A stretch of DNA of 64,000 nt from Cloeon dipterum. Taxonomy: Eukaryota; Arthropoda; Insecta; Ephemeroptera; Baetidae. The stretch is from contig NC_088790.1 of NCBI RefSeq assembly GCF_949628265.1, forward strand, positions 15,752,545 through 15,816,544. Direction: 5' to 3'. A program made the translations under genes and the position numbers. Of the stretch, positions 24,274-45,191 are shown piece by piece. Every line of letters starts with the position of its first letter. Positions within the stretch are counted from its first letter, which is position 1. Below the pieces are notes generated by a model, which had not been told where the DNA came from, did not search any database, and saw only the letters and a program-made list of their open reading frames with translations.

Positions 24274-27200
24274 TTAATCGATTGCTTCAGGCTCAAACTT
24301 GCAAATGACAGAAAACATGTCACCACCTAGTCTGTTGGCTAGCCACCGGTTCTTGATCACAGCCACTTTAAGACATTCGCAGGTGAACTTGGCGGTGAGG
24401 TTTGTGTGCAGGGCGCGACCCATCCCTTCCAACACAATCAAATCAACCTCACTTTGTACTAGCGTCTTGATCAAACCACGACACACTTGTCTGAAAAATA
24501 AAAATGAACATATCATTTATTTTAAACTACTTGTCTTGCTTGTTGTTTTGAGAAAAGAAGCAATTATTACAATTTTTATAACACACTCAAGTAAAAATTA
24601 CGCGGATTAAATATTTGTAGAAGGAATAATAACTTCATTTATTTTATTTTTTAAACCATTATTCATTCCATGGTTAGGTTTTAAAAATGCTAATGAAAAT
24701 TAAAGATGAGGCGGATTTTAATTTACAAATTTGAACAAAAATAATGTAATAAAATAATTATTTCCTAATTTCTTTTTGTTATTAGAAATTCTTGGTGAGC
24801 TTCAAATTTAAGGCAAGTGTTATTTCGCTACACTTAGGTAACTTAAAACGTTGCCCGACTTGGAAAAACCAGACGGACAAAAAGGATGTTATATAAACAG
24901 AAATTAAAAAAAAAAATCATTAACCCTTACCAGAATAATCAAAAAAGCCTCCTTACCTTAGATCTAAGCAGGGCCCGGCTTGAGCAGTGCCCATGGCTAG
25001 CAGTCTTGACGATTGTAGGGCACTTTGGATAATAGGACACATGACGCCGACCTGGCGCAGCAACTCCTGCAGCTCAGAGTAGGTGACGTCGTTGAGCGCG
25101 GGCGCCGAGTTGGCGCACAGAATAACTCGAGTGCCTCGTTTCAGGAGCTCACGGGCGAACGGAATGATGCCGAGCACTATGTCAAAACCACTGTTGTCGA
25201 CAAATATGGCGGCACATTTGTGAGCAGGACCCTTCATTCTCTGAAGCCACTGGTCCAGTCCATCAACCAGCCACGGCCTCTCTGGAATATGCAGATTAAC
25301 TATTTTTATTTGTTTAAAAAACTACTCAAAATGTATTCAACGTTTTTAAATCATTTAACAAATTAGGAAAAAACAGGAAACTACTACAATTGAATTGAAA
25401 TTGAAATATTTCATTTTAATTCAATAATTACAATTTTAAAATTTCAATTCACGGCTGTACAAGAAAATTCCGTTAATTCCTTCATGAACAATTAAAAATT
25501 GGAATATTTTAGCTTCAATTAAACACGTTCATAAAATAAAATATTAATTGAGGCAGATATTAATTACTGGGCATCTCTTATGGTTCAAAGAATTGCAACT
25601 ATTCTGTGGTTTTATATTTTCTGAACAATGAATGCACCACAACGTAACGAATTCTGGGCTGCTTCTCACCCTGCAGTTTGGACATTGCTTCTTCAAAGCC
25701 AAAACCATTTTGGCTCATCAGCGCTGCAACTTCCTTGGCACCCCAGTCAAACATATTGCCAGCCAAAATTGCCCTAATCAGCTCAGTGCGTCTGTTGATT
25801 TCGCTCATCTTGTCCAAATGCTGCAGCCGCTGTGGAAGCAAGGCCATGGCGATTTCGTTCTCCTGCTTTTTCTGCATCAGGTAAGGATCAGGAAAATCAA
25901 ACTCCTTCAACAGGTGCTCGATCGTGTCTAGGAGACTCCTCACGGTCAGGTTGCCGTACGCACTGGGGAGATTGTTGGAATCATTACTCATCATTCATGC
26001 AATAAAAGAAACTGAGCCCAGTTTAAATTTCAACTCACAATGGCTTTTCCTGCAAGTACTGCAGCCTGCTGAGGTACTTGTCTCGAAACTTGTGGGCCCT
26101 CTTCTCTGCTGTTTCACTGTGCGGCTGACTTTGGATGGCTCTGTCAACGTATTTGCATGTGGCATCTCGGAAGCATTGAATCCAGTAATCCCTGTAATTT
26201 CAGCAGGTGAACCAAGGTCAAAAGACGAGAATTTCTCTTGCACACCTCGCCTCTGTGTCTTTATTCAAATCAACGGTGTCAGGGATGTAGTTGTCTGGGT
26301 CGGCCAAGAAGGGCAAAGAGGTGACCGGGTGTTCCCAGCGGTCCATTTCCAGTTGGCCCAAAATCAGATTCGCTGGCGGTGTCACTGGCACTGTTTCAAA
26401 AGGCTCAATGGTGAAGTTCAGCTCCTGTGCGCTGCCAGCCAGATTTTCCTTCCACGAGTATTTATCCGAATCTGAGAAAATTTACTATTACAGTTGCCTT
26501 TTTATTTGGTCCGAAACATACCGCACTCCTCTGCTCCTTTGAGAAAAGCGCCAATAGCGCCTAAGTAGCCTTCATGCCTGAGAAACAGAGCCTGGACTTC
26601 ACCGCGGCTCCAGTAGTTTATTGCAAATGAGATGCTGTGCATGCTTAACGGATGCCCTCGCAAGAAATAGCCGCCAAAGTATATCTGTGACAAATTTCGC
26701 ACATTTATTTAGCTTCCACCACTTTTTTTTAATACGAAAAAACGTAGAAAAGGAAATTTAATAGAAAAGTTTGTTTCAATCTATAAGATCAGTAAATCTG
26801 TTCTTTAACTAGCTAAAGAGTGAAAACAGGAGTAGAGGAGGGGAGTGGGGAATGTAATGTCTTATGTTTACAATCCAAAGACAAAAAATGTCGACGAAAG
26901 CAAGTTGAATATCTGCCTGGTTTGCTATTTACTTTTTGGGGATTGCAAATGAGTTGTTATGATGTGGTATGGCCAAAATAAAAACAACCTTTAATTAAAA
27001 TTGAACTGAAAGTATATTTCGACTCAAGTTTACTAATAATCATGTGTTGGCAAAACATTGAAAATTGAAAAACGTCGTATTTTGTTGGGTGGAAAAATTG
27101 GAGGGGGTAATTTAGAGGCTGGGATAGTGTTGCACTTCAATTAAAATACCCTCATACACATCCCCTGAAAATTTCATGACGAATGTGACAACTGTTACGG

Positions 27201-29016
27201 CTACACTGATTGTGAGTGAAAATATAATATCATTAATTTGCTCTCAAACTATATTTCGGGACCAATTAGGACATTAAATTTATAAAATAAGTAATGCAAA
27301 ATAAGTGAGAATTTCCACAGAATCAGAATATAATTTCCAAAATACAAATAATATTGAACGTAGAGATATTTGAGTCATTGATTTCTGGCGATTTCTCATA
27401 AAACTGTTATCCTTTATTAATTTATTTTTCGCGGGATGGATTCTTCAATTAAATTTAGTAAACCAAGAAAGTATAATATGGGACAGCACAAACATGTTGC
27501 AAGGAATGAGGAATGAGCCCAGGGTCTTTGACTGAAATGCTAGACATTGCACCGTTCTGGTAATTATCACTTTATGAAAATGTGCAAACCAACAAGCATA
27601 GCGAGTTGGTAATCTTTCACATTCCTCCCAAATCCCAAATTGAATCATCATTTCAACGTAGGCATTTAACCTGCATTTCCCAATCATGGATCAGGTTCTC
27701 GCATTGCTATCTCAAGCTAAGCATGCGCTTAACAATGCGAAAAAGGCTAGGTAAACATTCAGATTGTAGATTTTAAAATATCATCAAATCGTTGAATTAA
27801 AGTAGACCGACTCACCCTTGGCATTTTGTACATCATCGCGTAAAGACACGCAATCTGGCCAATATCATTGCTAATCGTGAAGAGCAGACTCCTGGCAATG
27901 TCCGCCTCCGAGTACTCGCTGCTGTCCTTTTTCGCGTGCATGGCCTTGCCAAAAGACGAAGCTATCAGGTCTCCAGGCAAACCAAGCAGCTCATAATCTC
28001 CTCCGTAAATGTCCTTGACCAACATGTCCAGGTTGCGGTGGTCCCCTTTCTCGGCAAGGTCGAGCAACTCATCAAAACCCTGACAGAGTTAAATATAATG
28101 CATAAATCACATCTGATTGAATAATTACTTTGGCTGAGGTCAAGAGTTTGCCTAGCCCCCAAAAGGTTCCGCCTCCTGTGGCTGTGCCGCCGATTCTTTC
28201 GTATTTATCCTCAGACTCGACCTGAAATTTGTTTGCCTGTTTGGTAAACAGTTTCATTTGCCACATGAGGCAACCAACCTTCAAGATGCTGACTCCTGAA
28301 CCAATGTTGACTAACATGTAAGGGAAAATATTGGGTTGCGCCTTCATGAATATATACTCAGGATTTGCGTGGCGGCAGAATGTGAACGCCTCATCAGTCA
28401 TGTTTCTCAACAAAAAATTACAGCCTTTGATTAAACAGCTCAGCTCGTCTTCCTTGTCAACCCTACATATTAAAATTTGCAATAAATAAACCTAACATTG
28501 GGTAATTACTTACGAAAGGCCCAATTTATCATGTATGAGCTCTGTGTATTTGTACGCTCCACCACCTGTGGCCTTGATACTTTTGCCCAACATGTGATCC
28601 CGGGTGTTTACCAAGTGCTGCTGGATGAAGTCAAGGCATTGAGAAATGAATCGCGTCTCAAATTTGATAAAGTGCAGACGAGCTCCCTCCGAGATTTCGT
28701 ACACAAGGGCCTCCTGCAAAAGTAATTTTTAGCAAGTGGAGAAATTTCACAAGCAGAAAGAAATTTTACCTCGAGAGACGCTTCTTCTTGCTCATCTTTG
28801 TTGAGAGGGCCATAGAAAACCGTTCTTTGCGACGTTGTTGAGTAGTATGCAATTTTTGTGAGCGATCCACCTGAAAATTTGTTGAAACTTAACAATACAT
28901 AATTTTCGCAGTTTCAAAAACAAACCTATGTCGATGGCAAATCTCTTAGCGTTTCTCAAGTTGTCGAAAACCCTGATGTTGTCAGGTAAGTCGATTGGAT
29001 TGGTTTTGTCTGTCAT
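24274..29016 (-). CDS. PANK4: PANK4-type protein: pantothenate-kinase-like domain plus DUF89 phosphatase
   Basis: PANK4 joins a type II pantothenate-kinase fold to a DUF89 metal-dependent phosphatase acting on 4'-phosphopantetheine and related molecules, which limits CoA synthesis. I read twelve exons: 29016-28926, 28870-28770, 28713-28514, 28462-28279, 28221-28129, 28079-27816, 26684-26522, 26471-26246, 26191-26039, 25962-25670, 25281-24957 and 24490-24274. All phases agree, giving 769 residues (human about 773). Kinase-like motifs are [46 protein letters not shown] and the conserved [15 protein letters not shown]. The phosphatase half shows FVDNSG and NSAPALNDV, the acidic metal-site motifs. 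In the kinase half the residue after GGGAYKY is Thr, where active PanKs have Glu, while the Arg before the second Gly-rich loop is kept. An in-frame upstream ATG at 29091 would add 25 residues; the start at 29016 fits the family better. Confidence 0.95.
26685..27815 (-). other. PANK4 intron 6
   Basis: A 1.1-kb AT-rich intron between exons 6 and 7, by far the longest in the gene. I see no coding signal or repeat in it. Confidence 0.75.
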
Positions 29017-30401: not shown

Positions 30402-33400
30402 TCAGTTATCCTTTTTTGGTCCAGCAAAAATCTTTGCAAGATCTTCTTTGTTTTGGGCGTACTTCACAAACGAGTCTGTAATAGATGGGGGAATGTAAGT
30501 TTGAACAAATCTAAACAAATAAATACACACCGTAATTAAACTTTGAAACTGATTCTATTTTGTCGAAAATCCGATCCGCCCGCTCTTCTGACATTTTCAG
30601 TGAAATCTTCAGTGCTTGCACAGCTTCATCCCTGCTCATTCTAGTTGGGTCGCTGCTAACGGCCTGTTGAAGAGAAAAAGAGAATGAATTTAAGTTTCAG
30701 CTATTATTCACACTTTCGGAGCACCAACCTCAAACGCCAGTCTTGCCATCTCCTCAGTTTTACTCTTCATGTTAATGATGATACTGTCAAGCAAATACTC
30801 TCTAATATTTATGATTCGCACACCGTTCTAAAATGATAAAACAGGGGTCATTAATGAAAATTAGTTTTATTTCAAGGGAGATTACCTTGACGTAGAGCTG
30901 AAACAACTCTTGCACAGCATCATTTCCAGCGCTCACGTTTAGAACCTTCGCAAAGTCCTCCAAGGAGCAAAGATCTTTGTTCAGCAACTTAGATGCCTGT
31001 TGCACTTCTAATTCCAAACAATTTAGTCTGAAAATACAATAGAAAAATATACAAATGACAAACGAAGGTTGAAATTTGCTGAGAAATTTCAGCAATACAC
31101 TGGAAAAATTAAGGCTGTAGCAGGATTCTTTCCAACCTTTTCAATTATTCATTTAATAAAAAAATCTTAAGAATTTTTATAATTGGTTCAACACAGAAAA
31201 AACTCAAGAATTATTATTATCTGCGCCCAACTAAATTTATCTGGTCACATAAATGATATATTTTTAAAATGTTACCCAATTTTATGCCTCAGCTTTTGGA
31301 CTTTGACGAGGTCTGACGCTGATGGGAGGTTCAGCTCTACAGCCTTCTTGATCAAAAGCGTGTCTGAGTAGTTGTAGTCAGAGACAGGAATTTGGAGCGC
31401 CCTGCAAAAAAAAAGATAAGCAAAAGTTGGAACAGTCTTAACAATACCATACTTGGCCATGATGTTGCGCACATTGTTGGCAAACAATTTGGGATTATTT
31501 TTCTCCTCCTCGCTCGGCTTGTAGACGGGCAGGAACTCGATTTCGCAGATGCTGTTCCACCTGGTCAGAGTGAGCCAGAGCAGCTTCAGAGCGCCGGGCC
31601 CTTCCCAGGTCCAGGTGACGGTGTCCAGTTCGTTTGGGTATCTGATGCACACCGGCTGGACAGGCACACCAGGGTAGAAGGCGCCCAGCTTGAATGTGAT
31701 GAGACATTTCCTGTTCGTGCATGTTCCTTCGGGGAAGATCAAAATCTGCGCCAAGAGAAATATTAGACGTTTTGCTGAATGCAAGGGTAAGTTTACCTGG
31801 GGCCACTCCAGTTTTGAGGTGGCGCGGTTCACGATTTCCTTGATTGTTTTCTGGCGTGACGTAGGGTCATCTCTCCAGACGTACACCGGCTGTGTGTAGT
31901 TGATCAACTCTAAGGAAAGTATTAATATCGATATTGCCCTTTAAGCAAAAGCATTTAATGTTGGGAGCCGATAACAGGCACAGCCACCCGTTAATTTCTG
32001 TGTTTGGCACTTTTGCTTTGATTTCGATGGCACTTTATGTTCATTGTTAAACAGCTGATTAAAAGCTGGACATGTTGGCAAATTATTGGTTTTCATGTCT
32101 AGGATTTGCAATATTTTCCGTGCATTAAAAAATTTCCTGTGTTTTGAAGACGGGATATATTTTTTAAATGAGAGTTCAATTTAAAAATGAAAATTATTAG
32201 TTTAAAATTGAAACTTCCTAATTAGCCACTTTAGATGTCCAAATATTATTTAAAAAATCTAGAGCTTTTGCAAACTCAAAGAAATACAGTCATTTGATGA
32301 CGTAATTTCTCAACGTTGAATTAATTTAGAAAAAAAGATCATCAATACAAACTTCAGTTAAAAATATTCTGGAGCAATATTTTGGTATTTTTTTCGCTTA
32401 TTAAGTTTTTGGGGGCTTCTCATGTACTGTAAGGCACAGGATGCTAAATTTAAATGAGAATACGGTTAAAGTTTCCCTCATATTCTAGTTGCAGGTAAAC
32501 TTTTAACATACATAATTTTCAAATATTGGCTGTCCGATTTTATATGCGGCTCAAAACCAACTGCGAAAAGGGTGGTTATTTCAGGAAAAATGGACAGTCT
32601 TTTTGCCAAATCCTGTCAATAGATAGCTATGTGTTGCGAAATCGAAGCTGAAAGTGGAACAAAATTAACGGCAGCGTTTTCTGGTGACGATTCTCAACAC
32701 AATTCGTTTTTCGGTTATTGTGTCGGGAAAACCACTGAAACAGACATTCATTGGCCAGTTTGGGACACTTCCGTCGTTTCTTCAGAGCAAATCCTAGAGG
32801 AAGTGACCAAAACTAACAACTGTCCAGTGGATGTCCCGAAAGCTAAAACGAAACGCCAAATTCATGACTTAAGTTGGTTTAATGAAAAGCGGCTAGAATT
32901 ATTATGTTGCACTACTTGGAAGGGTAACTAGAAATAAACGTACTGCCAATGAAAGGGCTGAGGCCGCTCTCCCTGCGGGAAATGATGGAGGGGAATCCCG
33001 TGACATAGACAATGACCGCGTCCATGAAGGTGGAGTGCGGCGCGATAACGAGGATGGGTGCCTCCTCGCGGCTCGCCTGCTGCCCAATTACCTTCAGGTG
33101 CATACCCCCGACTTCATAGGTGCTGCGGCCCAGCCAACTGAGCATCCGCACCAGGGCCCTGCCACCGCCAAATTAAATCATGGTCAACATCAAGAACTCA
33201 AAACAGTTTAGGAATTAAATATTAGAATTGAGTCGCGTGAAAATTCAATAAAAACGGCTATATATAAAGAACGGAAAAATAAAACATCGAGCCAGCAGAA
33301 GAGCTAAATTAAATTTTTGCTTGAGCAGCTTAAATAGATGTCTTGAACCAGAACTAAAAAAATATTAAATATGTGTGTAAAAGGGTTAGTTTAGAGTGTG

Positions 33401-36400
33401 AAATGCTGTCCGTTGAATTCTGCCGTGAACATAAAATAATGGAGCATGCAAAAGCGATTGTTTTTGGTGAGGCAGAGGGACACAGAAATAGAGAGAGAGA
33501 GAGAGAAAGAGAGAGCAGCCCTGAACCAACATTTTTTCAGCAGTTTCGTGAGGGAGCGGACGCACTTTGATAATTAAATCGGGGGCCCGCAGTAAATATT
33601 AATCAGTCGCAGCAGGATGTTATTTTGGTGGGGTTAATCAAATTGAGTCTGGTTAATGTACCCTTCCAGTACCGGCGTTTTAAGCTTAATTAATAGTCAG
33701 CGAGCGCTTGCTCAAAAAATCAATTTCTTGCGACACATTCAACCGCATTTTTTTAAGCCAGTTTGCCCGTGTTCCAAGAAATCTCCGTTCAAGACTATCA
33801 AATTTGAGCAAGAGCTCGATTTTGTATGAATTTGGTGACGTACTGCCAAAGAAAGGAATGTTGGCCGTCTCGGCTTTGGCGACGATGCTTGGCGAGCCGA
33901 GTAGGACCACGGGCAGAGCGTCGAAAAAGGACGAGTGAGGCGCCAGAATGAGGACCGGCGCCTCCCTCTGAGTCGCCTGGCGTCCTTTGACCTTCACCGT
34001 GTGGAAACTACCGAACACCATAAGCAGGCGCACCAATTTACTGATCACTGCTCTCAACGACCTGCCAAAATATGTTAAGTAGAACACAGAAATACATACA
34101 TACATAAATTCATTTGAGCTAAAATACAGTAGGTTTGGTTGTGATTGAATGAAATACTGGTAAATATAAATCAATAAAAACAGTTTTAAGACTAATGAGG
34201 ACCATTCTAAAAAAAGCAAAAGCTCTTCAGAATTTGATTTATAAAGTGAAGAGAATATATTCTCTTACAGTGGACGATTTGAACAAATAACAAAGTGATG
34301 AATGTCTTGTAAAATAAATAATAATAATAACAACAGAAAATGGAGTTAGAATGATTTAAATTGACCACGCTTTACAAGTAAAGGAGTGATATCACAAACA
34401 CCAGAGCCTTGACCCGTAATAAGTGAATCACTTGAGATAAAAATCACAAACAAACACGCAACAAAAAGGTTGAAGGGAACAGGGAACAAAATTTGAATTT
34501 TTATATTTTTCGCATCGAGTTCCAGGTCAAGTTTTCCTGCACTGTGTCATTTTTCTCATTTTCCTCTGGTGCTATGGAAAAAATTCAGGTCGGAAAAAAA
34601 CTCAGAACAATGAGTCGACTGAGCGATAGCAATAGGTAACACAGCAAAGCCATCCACCGTAATTAGTAAGCGCAGTGTGCTTGTGCAACATTGTATTTAC
34701 AAATCGCCGCAGCGGCGATAAGAATTGACAAATCGGGGAGGTGTGTTTATGCAAATAGCACTGATCGTGCGAAAAAGAATTGATAACGACGGCATGAGTC
34801 AAGCAGCGTCAGCGTCGCTGAGGCAATACCTTCGCCAGCCGGTCAGGGGTTTGCAGCGCACGTCATTTTCGTCGAGGCCCACAAGACCGACGCAGGCCAA
34901 CACCCAGGCCAAACTCAGCAGCAGACCAATGCAAAGGACTCGCAGCGGCAGAAATGTCACCGTTAGAAGAGCGGTCTGAAACACAGATGTTAACATTTAA
35001 TACGTATAAAATGTTCGTTTTATTTCATAAATTGAAGAGGTTTGCAGGACGATGGTTTTCCCCAATGCCTTGCAGTGTATATTTGTGCACTTTGAAAATT
35101 TGGAAGTATAATTTTGACCTTTTCCTTAAATATTCTATGAGAATCGGGGAAGAGCTTCAAATTTCCCAGGATGCCTTCTGAGTAAATCGGCTTCTTGCAT
35201 GCTAATCAAGCAGCAAGCTCTATCCCTTTATTGAAAATCAGGATATATTTGTTCATTTCGTCAGAAGGTAAACATGCCTCATAATTCGCACATCGTAAGA
35301 TAGACTTAAACGAGAGAAATCTAAATCAAGCCAAAAATCATAAACAATAAACAGTTAGATGTTTAATGTTATTTTTTTATAATTATCTGAAATTTAACTG
35401 TTATACTCGACCCTAATTTGATTATTACAAGTTTATCTATTTAATTTTATATTAATTTTCTCAAAGCTTGATTTTGTGTGACCTCATTTGCTCCGTTTGC
35501 ATTTTTCGCACGGATTCATTCATGGGAACGGTACGTTTCTTTAAACAACACGTTTTACCGCCAATAATACATAAATAGAATGCGCAATATAAGTGTTTCG
35601 TACCTATCAAGGACAGAGAAAACAAACTTTTGCGTGCTGGCTTCGATTTTGAATTAATTGGCATTTTTCCAAAACCCTTTAAGTCATTGCCTGTCAACCA
35701 TCTCGAATATCAGGCGCAACAAATGTTGGTAAAAACTTCAAATTCGATGTACATTCTCTTACATAACCTGTGAGTGCTTTGAGATACATTCTAGCTGATA
35801 TTTTAAGCCGTGACGGCCTCGAGTCTGGCGTCTAAATTTAAATTACACCACGTTTTGCACCACCATTAAAATACTTGGTACCCAATGTTTGTGTTTGAAT
35901 AATGGGTGGATAGGTTTGCAGTTAGCCTAGTTTGTTTAACTGAAATTTGTTAAAATGATTTTTAATATACACTCCAACGAAAAAATTTTTTGATGGGATT
36001 TTTCTGAATTCTCGATTTTTAATAAAATTACGAAGTTTATTCCTTGCTAAAAAGCGTTTCGAAGAAAGTTCAAATGAAACCAAGAAGTTCATTAAATGCT
36101 AGAAACCATTAAGAGTAAAACTTTCTTTAAAAAACCGAGAGAAATTGTAACAACGATTAAACGTCGTAATTATCAGTGAGAACGATGCACTCTTGATGGG
36201 CTGCGTGCATCTGTCGGGCGCAATTGCGCACCTCATTTCTGACTTGGTTCCGGTGCATTCATAGCAGCAGCACGCGAGACGCGCGTTCCGTTTCTTCCGC
36301 GAAGAGTTTTCCTCGTGAAATTGCTCGCAAATCAATCCATCGAGCACAACAGCGACCTAGAGACAGTGCTGGGGGTTTCATGCACTGCGACTTGCTCCCA

Positions 36401-39400: not shown

Positions 39401-41955
39401 GGCTTCGGTTACCTGCAGGCGCCGAGCGAGTCTCGGTGAGCGGAGAAATTCGCGTTTGCAAAAAGGCTTTTGTCCGTTGTTTCATCTTTGCGATCCGACA
39501 CGCTCGAGTTCGGCCATTATCGAATTGGATCAATGCGAGTGACAGTGCAGAAACTACTTTGTTGAGCTGAATTGGTCCCGTTATTAACTCTTTGTCGGCA
39601 CTTCAATTGTAAATTGAACCGGGCAGACAAACCTTTCCGTTTGCTGACATTGTCATATTTATTAAATATAACACTTTTCTAAAGGTGCGGTCAAATTTTT
39701 AAGATACTATTTTGCCGGATTTGAATATTTATTGAAGCTGAATTCCGAAAGTAAGCCACAAAACAAATAAAAATACTCTTATCCCGGTCTTGATTTAGAT
39801 TTATCTGAAATTTCTAAAACAACAAAAATGACAAATTAGTTAGAGCAATTGCTTTTGGCTTCCAGGTCAGAGTTTTTGAACAACAGAATATAAAAGAACA
39901 TAGTGCAGCTGCATGCGATCTAAAAATATGCGCAGAAAAATCGAAGCTTACGAGTGTGTACGTTTGCGTTTTGAAATAAGCCTGCGTTTGCGTTAGCAAT
40001 CCAACGATTTTTCCGTGCGCTTGCCTAACGAAATCGACTAGTTTTAGTTCGTTCAACTTTAATGACACAAGTGCACGTATGTTCTCGATGTGCAGGCGAG
40101 AGAAAGCTCTTTTTTTCAGTCTTACGGCGAGGAGCATTAACAGAAAGAGAAAACACACATGCCGAAATTTCTCTTGCGGTTTCACGCCGTATTATTCACA
40201 ATAATTTGCATGATTAGGCAGTTTCGCCCGGCAATGCGAGCAGCACCTCTCAATGAAAGAAAAAGTGAATTAGGCAAACGAAGCACCGTCACCGGCACTT
40301 TTTACGCTTTTCAAGTTGTTAACCCGCGGCCGTCGGTGCACGGAGCTGCGGGGTTCCTACGACATGAAACACGGATGGTTGCCAGTCCCTGTCAAGGGCC
40401 GGTCTGATTTATTTTTCCTTTCAAGACGCAATATGCCAGTCTAAATAAAGGGTAGGTTAACTTAAAAATAAATTCTTGGTAGATGCCAATGAAGGTTAAA
40501 GCTCGCTATGTTGTTATAGTTGTCAGGAAAAACGAAATGCAGGTTCCTAGGTGTGTAGCGAGTTGTTATTGATTTTACCATATTTCTACAGACTAGAGCA
40601 GGACTTTTTCATTAGAATTATGGACAATTTAGAGCACTTAATTTCTACAGACAATTATTATATAAAAGAAATAAAATGAAAAGGAGACAAATTCGAATTG
40701 ATTTGAAAATTTATTAATTGTCCTACTGACCTGCTTTCTGCTTTCTTAAAAGTGAAAATTTAAAACCTTGTCTGTCCGCTTTTATTTTATATTGTTTTTG
40801 TCGATCTGGCAGCCCTACGTGATACCGAAGAGGCCTGATAACTCGCTACCTTTTCTCGGCGCTTTCCCATATTCTTTTGCGGCTTCCAAACTGAACCATC
40901 GCTGCGTGTACAACCGTGGACAACTTTTCCAACCACGCGATAAGGCAAAGCACCTTTTGTCTCTCTGATAAAAAATGCACATTCTGCCGAACAAAGACAA
41001 GGCTTGTGCCTTGTGCATGACCCACATATTTAATTTTGTTTTAACGAGAACTCCATTTCACGGGGCACTAATAATTGCATGCTCAAAATCCGGTCACGAT
41101 AATTTCGCGTCAATTCAGAGCAACCAGAACAATCTATCAATTAAAGTGTTTTTGTTTGTAAATTGTTTCGAAACAAAAATTTCTTCTAAATTAAGATAAA
41201 AAATCAACAAAATCAGTAAAAATAACAACAGTTTCAAATTACTTACAAACCTATCTAATATTTTTCAAAAACAATTTTGTTTTTATTGATTTCGAAACGA
41301 AGTTTTCAAATTCAATTTGTCTCGAAATTATCTATCGTTTTTTTAATTCTTCAAAAAAATATTTTCATTATATAATTATTGAGCTCACATCTGACGGGGC
41401 TAACAGACAAACAATAAGTACGCACCTTTTCAATCCGACACATTAACTCTTTTCTTACGACGTAAAGAGTGTTATCTTTACAGCAGTTATAACAAAGCCA
41501 TAAACGCGCATTAAATTTTTCTTTGAAGACGAGTGTGTCGAGTGAAAAAATGCAAAAATGTAGGCTACAGTCACGTCGGCTTTTATAATAGTATCGATGA
41601 TACAGTACGAAAAACATGTTGGCAGCTCCAACCGATCAATGCATGCATAACAAGCCAAACCCTCACGTGGTTTTTGAGCACTTGTGCGCATATCGCAGCT
41701 GATGCTCCACAATAGAATGCTAGATTACGACACTACGACACACATGAGGGTGGCGTGAGGCGTGCGATATCAACACACGCGCCTATGGGAAGCCAACAAA
41801 ATGAATCGCGAGCGGACGGAATGCATAATCACCTTTATCTTGTCTAAGGTGGATGTGAGTTCCAGGTGGTGCACGAAGGGGTTAAGCAACAGATCGGAGG
41901 GGATGCTTGGCAAGCTATCCTTCAGCCTGCCGTTCATTTTGCACTGCTTCTCCAT
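30402..41955 (-). CDS. LPCAT: Lysophosphatidylcholine acyltransferase (LPCAT1/2 type)
   Basis: The enzyme transfers an acyl chain from acyl-CoA to lysophospholipids in the Lands cycle, at the ER or on lipid droplets. Exons run 41955-41833, 34975-34830, then 34061-33844 (3a) or 33158-32944 (3b), 31909-31797, 31745-31453, 31401-31276, 31027-30886, 30827-30729, 30663-30531 and 30475-30402. Phases agree, giving 488 residues with 3a or 487 with 3b. Exon 1, 6.9 kb upstream, was assigned because it encodes NPFVHHLEL, which matches the family's conserved N-terminal motif, and ends in phase 0 at a GT donor. Exon 2 gives a hydrophobic membrane segment (about 42-75). HX4D lies at 132-137 (APHSSFFDA) and FPEGTCTNR at 204-212; a degenerate EF-hand-like region follows. 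The C-terminus is KKDN, a dilysine (KKXX) ER-retrieval signature. Fusion of acyltransferase and EF-like parts is usual for LPCAT1/2. Confidence 0.94.
32629..32931 (+). CDS. Candidate nested antisense ORF, 100 codons, unknown
   Basis: This ATG-to-TAG frame of 100 codons lies on the plus strand inside the LPCAT intron just downstream of exon 3b. It is less AT-rich than the surrounding intron and its codons look balanced. The peptide has six cysteines and the segment DIHWPVWDTSV; I recognise no family, signal peptide or membrane helix. An in-frame TAG sits two codons upstream of the ATG, within a possible acceptor (TCAATAG), so it could be a last exon. AATAAA follows the stop at 32933-32938. It may equally be chance, or an old insertion remnant. 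Confidence 0.3.
   Translation: MCCEIEAESGTKLTAAFSGDDSQHNSFFGYCVGKTTETDIHWPVWDTSVVSSEQILEEVTKTNNCPVDVPKAKTKRQIHDLSWFNEKRLELLCCTTWKGN
32944..33158 (-). other. LPCAT: LPCAT alternative exon 3b
   Basis: This 215-base exon is a diverged copy of exon 3a with the same entry phase (two carried bases), the same exit phase and the same donor string (GTACGT). It encodes APHSTFMDA, so HX4D is intact. It differs around the motif (IVYVTGFPSIISRRES instead of VVLLGSPSIVAKAET), in residues expected to line the acyl or substrate pocket. Both acceptors end in GGCAG. Confidence 0.85.
33480..33514. repeat. GA-rich microsatellite
   Basis: An imperfect (GA)n run (AGAGAGAGAGAGAGAAAGAGAGAG core) lies in the intron between LPCAT exons 3a and 3b. 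It is one of two GA tracts in the window. Confidence 0.8.
33844..34061 (-). other. LPCAT: LPCAT alternative exon 3a
   Basis: This 218-base exon resembles the canonical LPCAT1/2 sequence: KVKGRQA, APHSSFFDA, then AKAETANIPFFG. Its length is 2 modulo 3, like exon 3b's, so exactly one of the two must be used to keep the frame. Confidence 0.9.
34976..41832 (-). other. LPCAT intron 1
   Basis: A 6.9-kb intron between the short N-terminal exon and the membrane-segment exon. It includes CpG-containing, more GC-rich patches near 36.2-36.6, 37.3-37.5, 38.0-38.2 and 39.3-39.6 kb, which could be enhancers or alternative promoters. Short open frames occur in them on both strands, without family resemblance. 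No mobile element was recognised. Confidence 0.65.
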
Positions 41956-42993
41956 TCACAACATGTCCAAACGATCCTGGTGCGTTACTCGCAAAATTCG
42001 GACAGTAAAAGGTGAACGAGAATAGTGCCTATCCCTGTTGCAAAGTGTGTACCTTCTCGTCTTCGTCGTCGATTGCGCGGGCTCAATCGGTAAACTGCGA
42101 ACCTTGCTAGCCCACCAGCTGCAGAAATAATCAATGCGATTGGTGCTTACGTGGCGATTGCAGCGCCACAGCAACAGTGGCCATGAACAAAACAATTTTT
42201 CCAAATAATAACAAGCGGTGAAACCGATTAATTTTTGAAGCAGGCTAAAACTTTGGAACAGAAGAGAATTCTGTAATTTTGTAAATTCAAACCAATTAGA
42301 AAGGCATTGATAATTTATTGGTCACTAAAATACTAATTTTTTGTGCTGTCAAATAAAGTTATTCTAAAACAATCATTATGAAAACCGGTTTAAGAAATAC
42401 TTCATTTGACTATCGATTATTCAGAGAGGATTAAAACATAAAATATTCATAAAGTTAAACAAAATATTTATTTTGCTGTCGTAAAGTAAAATTATTAGGT
42501 AGATATTTTAGCAGGTTAGGAACTGGATATGGATAGTAGCTGACATGAGTGGTATATTTATTCTGTTTATTCTCATTTTAAACCTCTACCTCTGATTTTA
42601 GAACTTCCAGTGGTGGAGCTACACCCAGTGCACCCTACTTGTCATGAGTAGTACTACAAAAAGGGGCGTAGCTAGGCTGCATCAAAACAACTCGAAAAAG
42701 GGAAAGAGCCAGAGCCAGACGGGTTTCTTTGAAATCTGCAGCGACAACGTTCTGCACAAGCCGACTGTGATGTTATTTGCGCTACAGGCTTCTGTTTAAA
42801 TGAACGAATGTGAAGGTAAAGTTATGTTTTCATTGTAAAGCTTTAAAATAATGATTGAAATCTGGCTAGTCTAGCGCAATCATGGCTTTAACCTTCCATT
42901 GTACCTATCATACCTGTAGCGATTTTTTGAATTTACTTTATAAAAAAATGTTGCATACCGACAAAATATTTTGATCGTATTTCTACTTTTCAG
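41956..42993. promoter_or_regulatory. Shared upstream region of LPCAT and RNF170
   Basis: LPCAT reads left from 41955 and RNF170 reads right from 43004, so about 1 kb holds both 5' ends. The two probably share a bidirectional promoter. I see no TATA box for either gene. A likely RNF170 5' exon ends at 42815 (GAAG/GTAAAG) and splices to the acceptor at 42991-42993. Upstream of LPCAT a tiny uORF reads ATG-TTG-TGA and abuts the main ATG. Confidence 0.5.
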
Positions 42994-43007
42994 GTCGAAA
43001 AATATGA
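42800..43007 (+). promoter_or_regulatory. Candidate spliced uORF overlapping the RNF170 start
   Basis: If 42815 is joined to 42994, ATG at 42800 opens nine codons (MNECEGRKI). The frame ends in TGA at 43005-43007, which overlaps the RNF170 ATG at 43004-43006. It depends on the inferred 5' splice. Confidence 0.35.
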
Positions 43008-45191
43008 TAGGAGTAGGAGATGAGGTGGCCATCGCTGTCGTGTGTTTGCCTTTTCTCGCCCTCGTGATCTATTGCTCAATCTTACTGAGACGAAAGTACC
43101 TCAGGGCCAACTCTCGCCGTAAGCTCTCTCTCCAGCCAATTGGAGGCCTTTCATCCAGTTACAATATTTCAGGAGCAGCCATGCAGATCGATGCGCGACA
43201 GCAGGACCCGCCGAGAGAGCCCTTCAACTATGCCGACTACACATGTCCTATTTGCATCACGCAAATCGATCTTCCGGTCGAGACAAATTGCGGGCACAAA
43301 TTTTGTGGTTTGTTCTATTTTGCATCTGATTTTAGGATATCCATTAAAACGATACACTCGTTTTATTTTTCAAACGTTTCCTCTTTATTTTGTCGGCAGA
43401 GGCTAAAGAGGGTGTCACAATTTTTTGTTTCATAATAATTTCTAGATTGCATAATAAAATACTGTAGTAATTCGTCCTGGTCCCGGAAAATTGCGCAACG
43501 TTCAACAAACAACCAAATTTTCATTGTCGAATTGATTTTTGACCTTTTCTTGCAACATGGAAATTAGCGTTTGGTTGTTGAAAGTTACGCAATTTTGCCG
43601 GGACCAGGACGAATTATTGTTTAGAAATATTTTCTGTTAAAATTAAACACAGCTTCTTAGGTTTTAAAGCAAACTGTTTATTTTTCCGTATTACTACAGA
43701 AAGTTTCTATTTTGGAAAAAATTAAGTGTTCGTTATTCACCAAGGAAGCTGCATTTAACTAAACATAAAAATATTTAATATTCTATAACTTCAGCCAGAG
43801 TTCAGAATATATTATAAATCCTTTAGTTTTCGTTTTCAATTTTTTTGGTAATGTTTTTACCAAGCACTAACTAAACTTTGCAACAGTCCTATTAAAAAAT
43901 ACTCAACAGGTGCTTGCATTCTGGAAAACTGGCGGGTGTGGCGCCGAGAGCACATTGGGGCGCTCAAGTGTCCTCTGTGCCGGACGAAGGTGCGCATGTT
44001 GCTTCCTTTGTTCTCGAATAACAATGGCGCACCCGTCACAGCCGAAGCCCAACTAAGACACAGAGAGGTCATCAACCAGGTCAACCGGTACAACAGCAAG
44101 CATGCTCATGGACGAAATGTAAGAAGAAAGATTTTTGAAAACAGCTTGAAATATTTATTTTGTCTTTTTAATAATTTTTCAGACAAAATTAATTTTGATT
44201 ATTTGACCATTTGAAATTAAGAGGGTTAATAATATTTTTTAAATTAATTTTACGGTTAATAGATTTTAACGAATTTCAGTTTCTAAAATGTAATTCAGAA
44301 CATTTTTCAAAAAGTCTAAAAATCGCTTAACTTACAAGGGCATGAAGTTCCGGATTTTCGAAAACACCACTTGCCTCAAATTCGTTGATCTCGACTTCCA
44401 GAGATGCAAATGATACAAACCTCACACCATTTTGAAGCTTATAAAGAGATCAACAAATCGGTAAAAGGGTCAAGATCGTAGGACAAAGGTCAAGATCACT
44501 AAAATATCGCCAAAATCATACAACCACCGCCAAATATAGAAAGTCAAAATATTTTTCAACACAAAGCACATAAAGAATTTATTATTACGTTGATATAAAA
44601 AAGCATGGCAGATATATTTTTTTGTTTTTTTAGAATATTAAGGCGGAAGTTTAAAAGTGCAAAATATTGGAAATTTAAAAAAATACAAGTTTTTGGTATT
44701 TATAAAAGTTGTGGTGGGGGTTTTATAATATATAAGCCATCCCATGGGAGATTTCTGGGGGTAGTAGTAATGAACTTTAGCCTTAATGAGTGCCGAGCGC
44801 GAGCGTTCTTGGTATATCGTTTCTTATTCTTTTCATCATCAGAACCTCAAATCTGATGTCATTTTTAATGTCACAATTTGAAGATTTGTTTTAATACTGG
44901 TAAACCATTTAATTCAAGTTGGTGCAAATGATGCGGGACGCGCCTGTGCTTCTGCGTCACCTGCTGGTGGAGCTGCGCGAGATGGGCGGGCTGAGCCAGT
45001 TGTTCGTGGCCAAGTTGGTCGTCTGCATCCTGATCACGGGCATCTACCTGGTGTGCCCGATTGACATGCTGCCGGAGGCTGTGCTCGGCTTCCTCGGACT
45101 GATCGATGACATGCTTGTGATCATGCTCTTTTTTGTCTACGTTTCCCGCATGTATTACGGAATAGTACAAGACCGCGCTGTCGCTGAATGA
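43004..45191 (+). CDS. RNF170: RNF170-type membrane RING E3 ubiquitin ligase
   Basis: RNF170 is an ER-membrane E3 that ubiquitinates activated IP3 receptors in mammals. Three coding exons (43004-43307, 43910-44118 and 44919-45191) splice in phase to 261 residues (human 258). An N-terminal membrane helix lies at about 8-27. The C3HC4 RING has Cys81, 84, 96, His98, Cys101, 104, 122 and 125 (CPIC, CGHKFCG split by the first intron, then ACI, CPLC). The C-terminal DUF1232-like part has two hydrophobic helices around [12 protein letters not shown] and [10 protein letters not shown]. The start is the first ATG after the acceptor at 42991-42993. Intron 1 carries a short inverted-repeat element. The Gly of CGHKFCG is restored only by splicing; reading through intron 1 loses the ACI part of the RING. 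Confidence 0.93.
43470..43614. mobile_element. MITE-like inverted-repeat element with TA flanks
   Basis: Two arms of about 45 bases at 43470-43517 and 43571-43614 are near-perfect reverse complements. Both begin, read inward, with ATTCGTCCTGGTCCCGG. Direct TA dinucleotides flank the unit (43468-43469 and 43615-43616), the target-site duplication of Tc1/mariner-type elements. The central 53 bases encode nothing. It sits in RNF170 intron 1. I saw no second copy in the window. Confidence 0.8.
44119..44918 (+). other. RNF170 intron 2
   Basis: An 800-base AT-rich intron. It contains a short direct repeat GGTCAAGATC (two copies between 44465 and 44500) and nothing else I can support. Confidence 0.75.

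Follow-up and report, generated by a model that had tools for sequence, protein, structure and literature searches.

A probable pair of mutually exclusive exons across catalytic motif 1 of an arthropod LPCAT-type acyltransferase gene

Frame-constrained mutually exclusive exons (MXEs) are described in three general studies as homologous exons of similar length and the same phase whose joint inclusion often shifts the reading frame (PMC5740500, PMC3228551, PMC9741552). An instance from an acyl-lipid enzyme is provided by the fatty-acid gate-domain exon pairs of ACSL1 and ACSL6, whose structural basis is proposed to be a Phe/Tyr switch (PMC1543647). The tandem exon pair reported here, exons 3a and 3b of an LPCAT-type acyltransferase gene, is probably of this already known kind, of which the ACSL gate exons are an example, and it would resemble the ACSL pairs in that a substrate-facing segment of an acyl-lipid enzyme is swapped by means of mutually exclusive exons. 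The two differ, however, in that the ACSL enzymes are acyl-CoA synthetases exchanging a short motif, whereas the LPCAT swap includes the catalytic His and Asp, and in that ACSL forms without either exon are on record (PMC1543647), while loss of both breaks the reading frame of the LPCAT transcript. By analogy, the Lys/Arg switch between 3a and 3b described below may be the counterpart of the Phe/Tyr switch of ACSL.

Within its own family, the gene has in common with LPCAT1, LPCAT2 and LPCAT4 (LPLAT8, 9 and 10) and with Drosophila CG32699 the AGPAT-type motifs 1-4 and an N-terminal hydrophobic segment (PMC8753187, PMC4293825), and the distance between its motifs 1 and 2 is that implied for LPCAT2 and LPCAT4 in PMC8753187. 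Drosophila likewise has a single LPCAT1/2 orthologue according to the main text of PMC4293825. Exon 3 is duplicated in the present gene; the same main text contains neither 'splic' nor 'exon' and describes no such pair for CG32699. The terms 'LPCAT' and 'AGPAT' are absent from the main text of PMC5740500, and 'acyltransferase' is absent from PMC5740500, PMC3228551 and PMC9741552, supplements apart. No report of the LPCAT 3a/3b pair was found in the literature within reach, which took in few subscription papers and no supplements. The papers found that join mutually exclusive exons with lysophosphatidylcholine acyltransferase are, by title, plant work.

The gene lies on the minus strand of the analysed stretch of 64,000 nucleotides (hereafter the window) and is complete, with 10 coding exons and a product of 488 or 487 residues; either version of exon 3 yields a complete, in-frame LPCAT gene and all 10 intervening stretches are GT-AG. 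Exon 1 (41833..41955) holds the start codon, encodes MEKQCKMNG...LTSTLDKIK and leaves in phase 0 at the donor AAG/GTGATT, where '/' is the exon boundary, while exon 2 (34830..34975, phase 0 to 2) encodes the N-terminal hydrophobic segment and ends PLTGWR. Beyond the exon 3 pair, motif 2 (QPVYVWR) is found in exon 4 (31797..31909, phase 1 to 0) and both motif 3 (FPEGT) and motif 4 (VPVQPV) in exon 5 (31453..31745, phase 0 to 2), followed by exon 6 (31276..31401, phase 2 to 2). A putative C-terminal EF-hand-like region begins in exon 7 (30886..31027) and is followed by exon 8 (30729..30827), exon 9 (30531..30663) and the last coding exon, 10 (30402..30475), in which the protein ends KKDN-stop. 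LPCAT1 and LPCAT2 carry a C-terminal EF-hand region; here, a Pfam comparison returned no EF-hand match at E<=1, and residues 355-447 gave a weak PDB match to dual oxidase 1 (E 0.0021).

Exon 3a (33844..34061, minus strand, 218 nt) and exon 3b (32944..33158, minus strand, 215 nt) stand in tandem, separated by 685 nt (33159..33843). The original prediction gave these two lengths, placed two carried bases at the entry of both exons and one at the exit, and described their splice sites and an HX4D motif in each; all of this is seen, both exons running from phase 2 to phase 1, with acceptors that end TTTTGGCAG (3a) and GGTGGCAG (3b), donors that read GCA/GTACGT in both and motif 1 present as HSSFFD in 3a, which also holds the AKAET segment, and as HSTFMD in 3b, which holds SRRES. 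The proposed identity of about 40% was too low and is corrected to 45% (33/73 aligned residues, with a one-codon gap); the global alignment of 3a with 3b scores 155 vs -25.5 +/- 10.6 for 500 shuffles of 3b. The idea that the frame enforces the choice also withstands a reading of the four possible products: 3a or 3b singly stays open to the end, joint inclusion meets its first stop at codon 184, within 3b and starting 153 nt before the end of that exon, and skipping of both meets one at codon 104, in exon 4, 73 nt short of that exon's end. The shared remainder of the two lengths (2 modulo 3) is no added coincidence because exon copies inherit phase. The pair thus shows the features of tandem-duplicated MXEs, namely adjacency, similar length, same phase, homologous products and no full-length protein on joint inclusion or skipping, and plausible GT-AG sites flank both copies at all four positions. 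When each exon was used as a genome query at E<=1, itself and its partner were the only matches among the best candidates scored (3 and 2, respectively), the partner at E about 1e-11, and no third copy of exon 3 turned up when the whole window was scanned in translation on both strands, the pair scoring 150 against each other and the next best 40.

The location of the duplicated exon at an LPCAT active site, as had been proposed, agrees with the HX4D inside it and with the AGPAT motifs 1-4 of the gene, which are read from the sequence in the order HX4D, QPVYVWR, FPEGT and VPVQPV; the name LPCAT (LPLAT8-10) is a putative assignment based on these motifs and on family sequences. Both isoforms lie above the PF01553 cut-off (23 bits), and the description of 3a as the canonical copy fits the scores of 67.8 bits for the 3a protein vs 58.0 for the 3b protein. 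In both, 43 residues separate the motif-1 His from the motif-2 Arg, a spacing of the LPCAT1/2/4 type: the motif ranges of Table 3 in PMC8753187, if taken from His to Arg, correspond to 43 residues in human LPCAT2 and LPCAT4 and to 42 in LPCAT1. The exchange of AKAET for SRRES, said to be near the substrate region, does fall on the segment holding Lys105 in the PlsC sequence 5KYM, to which 3a was aligned directly, over motif I and the K105 region, and 3b was positioned via the 3a-3b alignment. Lys105 of PlsC is a suggested binder of the substrate phosphate, and its position, which is H+20 here, is occupied by Lys in 3a and by Arg in 3b. A single LPCAT-type gene was found in the genome search; with exons 4+5 as the query there was, besides the gene itself, one weaker match on C3 that reads FPEGTCINN (E 3.4e-6, 46% over 48 residues) and that we regard as GPAT-like; four further matches were weaker again (E 0.014 to 0.29).

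Taking these observations together, we consider it highly probable that 3a and 3b are a functional, tandem-duplicated pair of mutually exclusive exons in the sole LPCAT1/2-type gene found in this arthropod genome. It is distinctly improbable, in our estimate, that 3b is instead a relic or a very rarely used old duplicate with a frame that is still open, the enzyme being made from 3a alone. Its lack of in-frame stops is by itself weak evidence, as the exon also stays open in about 10-12% of random-mutation trials, and a relic would be consistent with the lower Pfam score of the 3b protein and with an acceptor poorer in pyrimidines (9/19) than the other nine scored, so that 3b could be rarely used. 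Against this stands an amino-acid identity far above the random-mutation null, since random placement of an equal number of nucleotide changes preserved at least 33 identical residues in only 1/20000 trials starting from 3a and 0/20000 starting from 3b. Exon 3b also shares its donor with 3a and retains the HX4D, the Pro at H+27 (PxxG) and the 43-residue spacing, and its GC3 is 0.80 (3a 0.72, exons 1+2 0.72, exon 5 0.76). Its overall GC is 0.62 vs 0.35-0.39 in the three adjoining introns, a level reached by 0/1706 windows of 215 nt from the five introns long enough. The differences between 3a and 3b show only a mild coding bias (33, 24 and 39 of 71 at codon positions 1, 2 and 3), and the dN/dS of about 0.42 carries little meaning because the dS of 1.33 rests on one crude method (NG86). 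On this sequence evidence, exon 3b looks to be under protein-level selection.

The broken frames raise the further alternative that the second exon is mainly an off-switch, with joint inclusion leading to a premature stop and decay and so tuning the amount of enzyme and not its type. The positions of the stops within 3b and exon 4 would suit such a device, 60% of human MXE clusters hold exons of a length not divisible by three, and one of the ways shown for regulating MXEs is a frame shift that leads to decay (PMC5740500). A pure poison exon, however, has no need to encode an acyltransferase, yet 3b keeps HX4D and its similarity to the family, and we think this explanation very improbable indeed; the off-switch and isoform-switch roles can coexist. 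A larger but still minor likelihood attaches to the case in which both isoforms are made and work alike as enzymes, with differences confined to expression pattern or membrane behaviour, which is a variant compatible with a functional MXE pair. Replacing Lys with Arg where PlsC has K105 is a conservative change and would favour equivalence, but 40/73 aligned residues differ in what is the active-site half, and in mammalian homology models the acyl-CoA pocket is surrounded by the four AGPAT motifs (PMC8753187).

If 3a and 3b form a functional MXE pair, the question arises of how the choice between them is made. Cis devices, whether steric closeness or competing RNA pairing, are common in MXEs and are not required. 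Steric exclusion is rejected here, as the 685 nt between the exons are too long for it. Scans for 80-nt duplexes among the three introns of 768, 685 and 1034 nt, at a step matched to that of the shuffles, gave no intron-intron pairing above shuffles: the best energies were -36.8, -37.5 and -35.6 kcal/mol, where 15 shuffles per scan averaged -35.6, -37.0 and -35.2. At a finer step the pre-3a intron pairs with the post-3b intron at -42.5, compared with a lowest shuffle of -40.6 at the coarser step, which is no matched control, and a repeat search gave 25 inverted pairs, a count without a chance control; conserved docking sites are not excluded by these scans because a single genome cannot show conservation. 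U2/U12 splice-site incompatibility, a rare route to exclusivity, seems an unlikely basis as all sites are GT-AG. The two identical donors, with 5/9 consensus matches, are the weakest in the gene by U1 pairing, and the choice is therefore probably made by trans-acting regulators.

We infer that in vivo each transcript takes either 3a or 3b, the choice being made probably by trans-acting factors acting on the two weak donors and with 3a as the likely default. Transcripts with both or neither exon would shift frame, run into a premature stop far enough upstream of an exon junction and be expected to decay, so that the reading frame and decay would act as a backstop to the regulated choice. The two isoforms would have the membrane anchor, motifs 2-4 and the C-terminal region in common, and the swapped piece would comprise the catalytic His and Asp together with the segment matching the suggested substrate-phosphate contact of PlsC, where 3a has Lys and 3b has Arg. 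Activity is predicted for both isoforms, with a probable difference in rate, in location or in preference for lysolipid or acyl-CoA. Production of both forms would mean that a single lipid-remodelling gene yields two catalytic pockets on one scaffold; a comparison of the two natural variants of this ~73-residue segment could then map lysolipid acyltransferase specificity, and the composition of membranes or lipid droplets could be altered by splicing alone in an animal with only one such gene found.

At the headgroup-contact position, vertebrate LPCAT1 has AKAET and LPCAT2 and LPCAT4 have SR-x-E. It is conceivable, though rather doubtful, that this arthropod gene offers by splicing the same active-site alternative that vertebrates keep in separate paralogues, its headgroup-contact segment being either of Lys type, like that of LPCAT1 (AKAET), or of Arg type, like that of LPCAT2 and LPCAT4 (SR-x-E). 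Were this true, one pair of lysolipid acyltransferase specificities would have been arrived at, or inherited, along two routes, alternative splicing and gene duplication.

Relatives were also searched among viruses, bacteria and archaea, a search that has no bearing on absence in arthropods. In viral contigs, none of the candidate stretches was confirmed for exon 5 (9 stretches) or for a query spanning 3a to 5 (20), and in prokaryotic genome contigs 1/51 candidate stretches was confirmed for exon 5, a short match in a bacterial MAG (35 residues, 51%) that is uninformative on the exon pair. The genome itself contains 94 matches to Chitin_bind_4, which we take to be a cuticle family pointing to arthropods, as well as a single doubtful odorant-binding match interrupted by two stops.

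The minus strand carries a complete LPCAT-type gene, whose coding exons span 41955-30402 in a model predicted from reading frame, splice signals and general features of the family: exon 1 (41955-41833), exon 2 (34975-34830), exon 3 in two tandem versions, 3a (34061-33844, 218 nt) and 3b (33158-32944, 215 nt), each running from phase 2 to 1, exon 4 (31909-31797), exon 5 (31745-31453), exon 6 (31401-31276), exon 7 (31027-30886), exon 8 (30827-30729), exon 9 (30663-30531) and exon 10 (30475-30402). GT-AG ends are found in all 10 intervening stretches, and either copy of exon 3 gives an uninterrupted reading frame between ATG and stop (488 or 487 residues). The protein ends in KKDN, encoded by exon 10, which fits a KKXX endoplasmic-reticulum retrieval signal.

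The duplication of LPCAT exon 3 in the original prediction is confirmed: the copies are identical at 33 of 73 aligned residues and their alignment scores 155, where 500 shuffles gave a mean of -25.5 (SD 10.6). Their common phase adds no evidence, because a duplicated exon necessarily has it. Genome searches with 3a or 3b, which score the best candidates only, gave among these at E<=1 only the query itself and its partner (partner E 1.2e-11 and 1.3e-11). When both strands of the window were scanned in translation, a third copy did not emerge (the score after the pair's 150 was 40). A genome search with exons 4 and 5 likewise turned up no second gene for LPCAT; its other matches were weaker and acyltransferase-like. 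Elsewhere in the genome, four PF01553 (Acyltransferase) matches (loci L001, L002, L004 and L005) occupy about 10.5 kb on both strands of one contig (G000:C4:18944325-18954853), as if they were a tandem AGPAT gene cluster. A goat-omasum Proteobacteria MAG encodes, at L013:5001-5117, a stretch with 51% identity to the LPCAT motif-3 exon over residues 1-35 of the latter. Genome-wide, there are 94 cuticle-type Chitin_bind_4 matches and only one, doubtful, insect odorant-binding match, a pattern that might, as a guess, point to an arthropod that does not belong to the winged insects.

Use of both copies or of neither does break the frame, as had been proposed. With both included, translation meets its first stop at codon 184, which lies in 3b and begins 153 nt short of the exon's end; with both skipped, codon 104 is the first stop, 73 nt from the end of exon 4. 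Since these stops satisfy the usual 50-55-nt rule, both transcripts would be targets of nonsense-mediated decay. Such frame enforcement is ordinary for mutually exclusive exons; in a human survey, 60% of clusters contain exons whose length is not a multiple of three (PMC5740500).

Several properties argue that 3b is a working exon. Its third-position GC is 0.80 (3a, 0.72; exons 1 and 2 together, 0.72; exon 5, 0.76), and its overall GC of 0.62 compares with 0.357, 0.385 and 0.346 in the three adjoining introns, a value matched by none of 1706 intron windows of 215 nt drawn from the five introns long enough. Random scatter of the 96 nucleotide differences left at least 33 identical residues in 1 of 20000 trials starting from 3a and 0 of 20000 from 3b. 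The HX4D motif, the Pro of PxxG and the 43-residue spacing to the motif-2 Arg are all retained in 3b. Other measures are weaker: an open frame also survives in 10-12% of random mutation trials, first, second and third codon positions differ at 33, 24 and 39 of 71 places, and dN/dS (NG86) is 0.557/1.33, near saturation. On this genomic basis, from one assembly, a functional mutually exclusive pair is the likely interpretation.

The 3a protein aligns to the solved T. maritima PlsC sequence (5KYM) with E 4.4e-7, which places motif I against H84-D89; the AKAET Lys falls opposite the PlsC Lys that counts out as K105. The segment exchanged between the copies (AKAET in 3a, SRRES in 3b), originally suggested to be near the substrate region, falls on this stretch, and at the K105 place (H+20) the 3a-3b alignment gives Arg in 3b, with the Pro at H+27 retained. 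According to a review, K105 lies between motif I and the conserved P112 and was suggested, with R159, to interact with the LPA phosphate (PMC6688108); in another review, mammalian homology models have motifs 1-4 surrounding the acyl-CoA pocket (PMC8753187). The exon switch would so alter the pocket on its catalytic and headgroup side and keep motifs 2-4 the same, and it carries a concrete residue-level prediction, Lys versus Arg at the K105 place.

The spacing of 43 from His to motif-2 Arg, common to both isoforms, equals that of human LPCAT2 and LPCAT4 (43) and is one off that of LPCAT1 (42), the human values being those implied by Table 3 in PMC8753187, provided its ranges start at His and end at Arg. 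A literature text search for the motif strings gave no match. At the K105-equivalent place, vertebrate LPCAT1 presumably has Lys, and LPCAT2 and LPCAT4 presumably share with 3b an SR-x-E type of segment. If so, splicing in this arthropod would mirror a vertebrate paralogue split, a reading that is a lead and rather improbable. The Drosophila gene CG32699 lies, presumably, on the X chromosome. It is described in PMC4293825 as the one predicted LPCAT1/2 orthologue, with LPCAT activity and a lipid-droplet location, and neither 'splic' nor 'exon' occurs in the main text of that paper. Prediction of mutually exclusive exons by length, phase and homology has been run on all Drosophila X chromosome genes (PMC3228551), a paper that did not come up in the literature search on CG32699. 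In function, the LPCAT pair comes closest to the exon pair for the gate domain in ACSL1 and ACSL6 (PMC1543647); no earlier report of the LPCAT pair was found in a literature search whose reach left out most subscription papers.

As to how the choice may be made, steric blocking is excluded by the 685 nt between 3a and 3b. The GTACGT donor predicted for both copies is present as an identical GCA|GTACGT (computed U1 pairing -1.3 kcal/mol, consensus 5/9); among the ten donors scored, that of exon 5 is close in pairing energy, at -1.6, and that of exon 6 likewise reaches 5/9. The 3b acceptor has the fewest pyrimidines of ten scored (9/19; exon 2 is next, with 10). Such weak and equal donors suggest a choice governed by trans-acting regulators together with enhancers in exons or introns, probably with 3a as the default. 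Intron-intron pairing did not exceed shuffles at the matched step; one stronger, finer-step duplex of -42.5 joins the intron before 3a with that after 3b, the shuffle control being at the coarser step.

Roughly 1 kb away from the start codon of LPCAT, on the opposite strand, begin open frames (42971-45188, plus) with a partial RING finger and a DUF1232 match, presumably RNF170-like, and the two may possibly share a divergent promoter. On the minus strand at 24956-28728, the neighbouring gene or genes contain exons for a pantothenate kinase (Fumble) domain and for an ARMT1-like phosphatase, a domain pair that we take to be PANK4.
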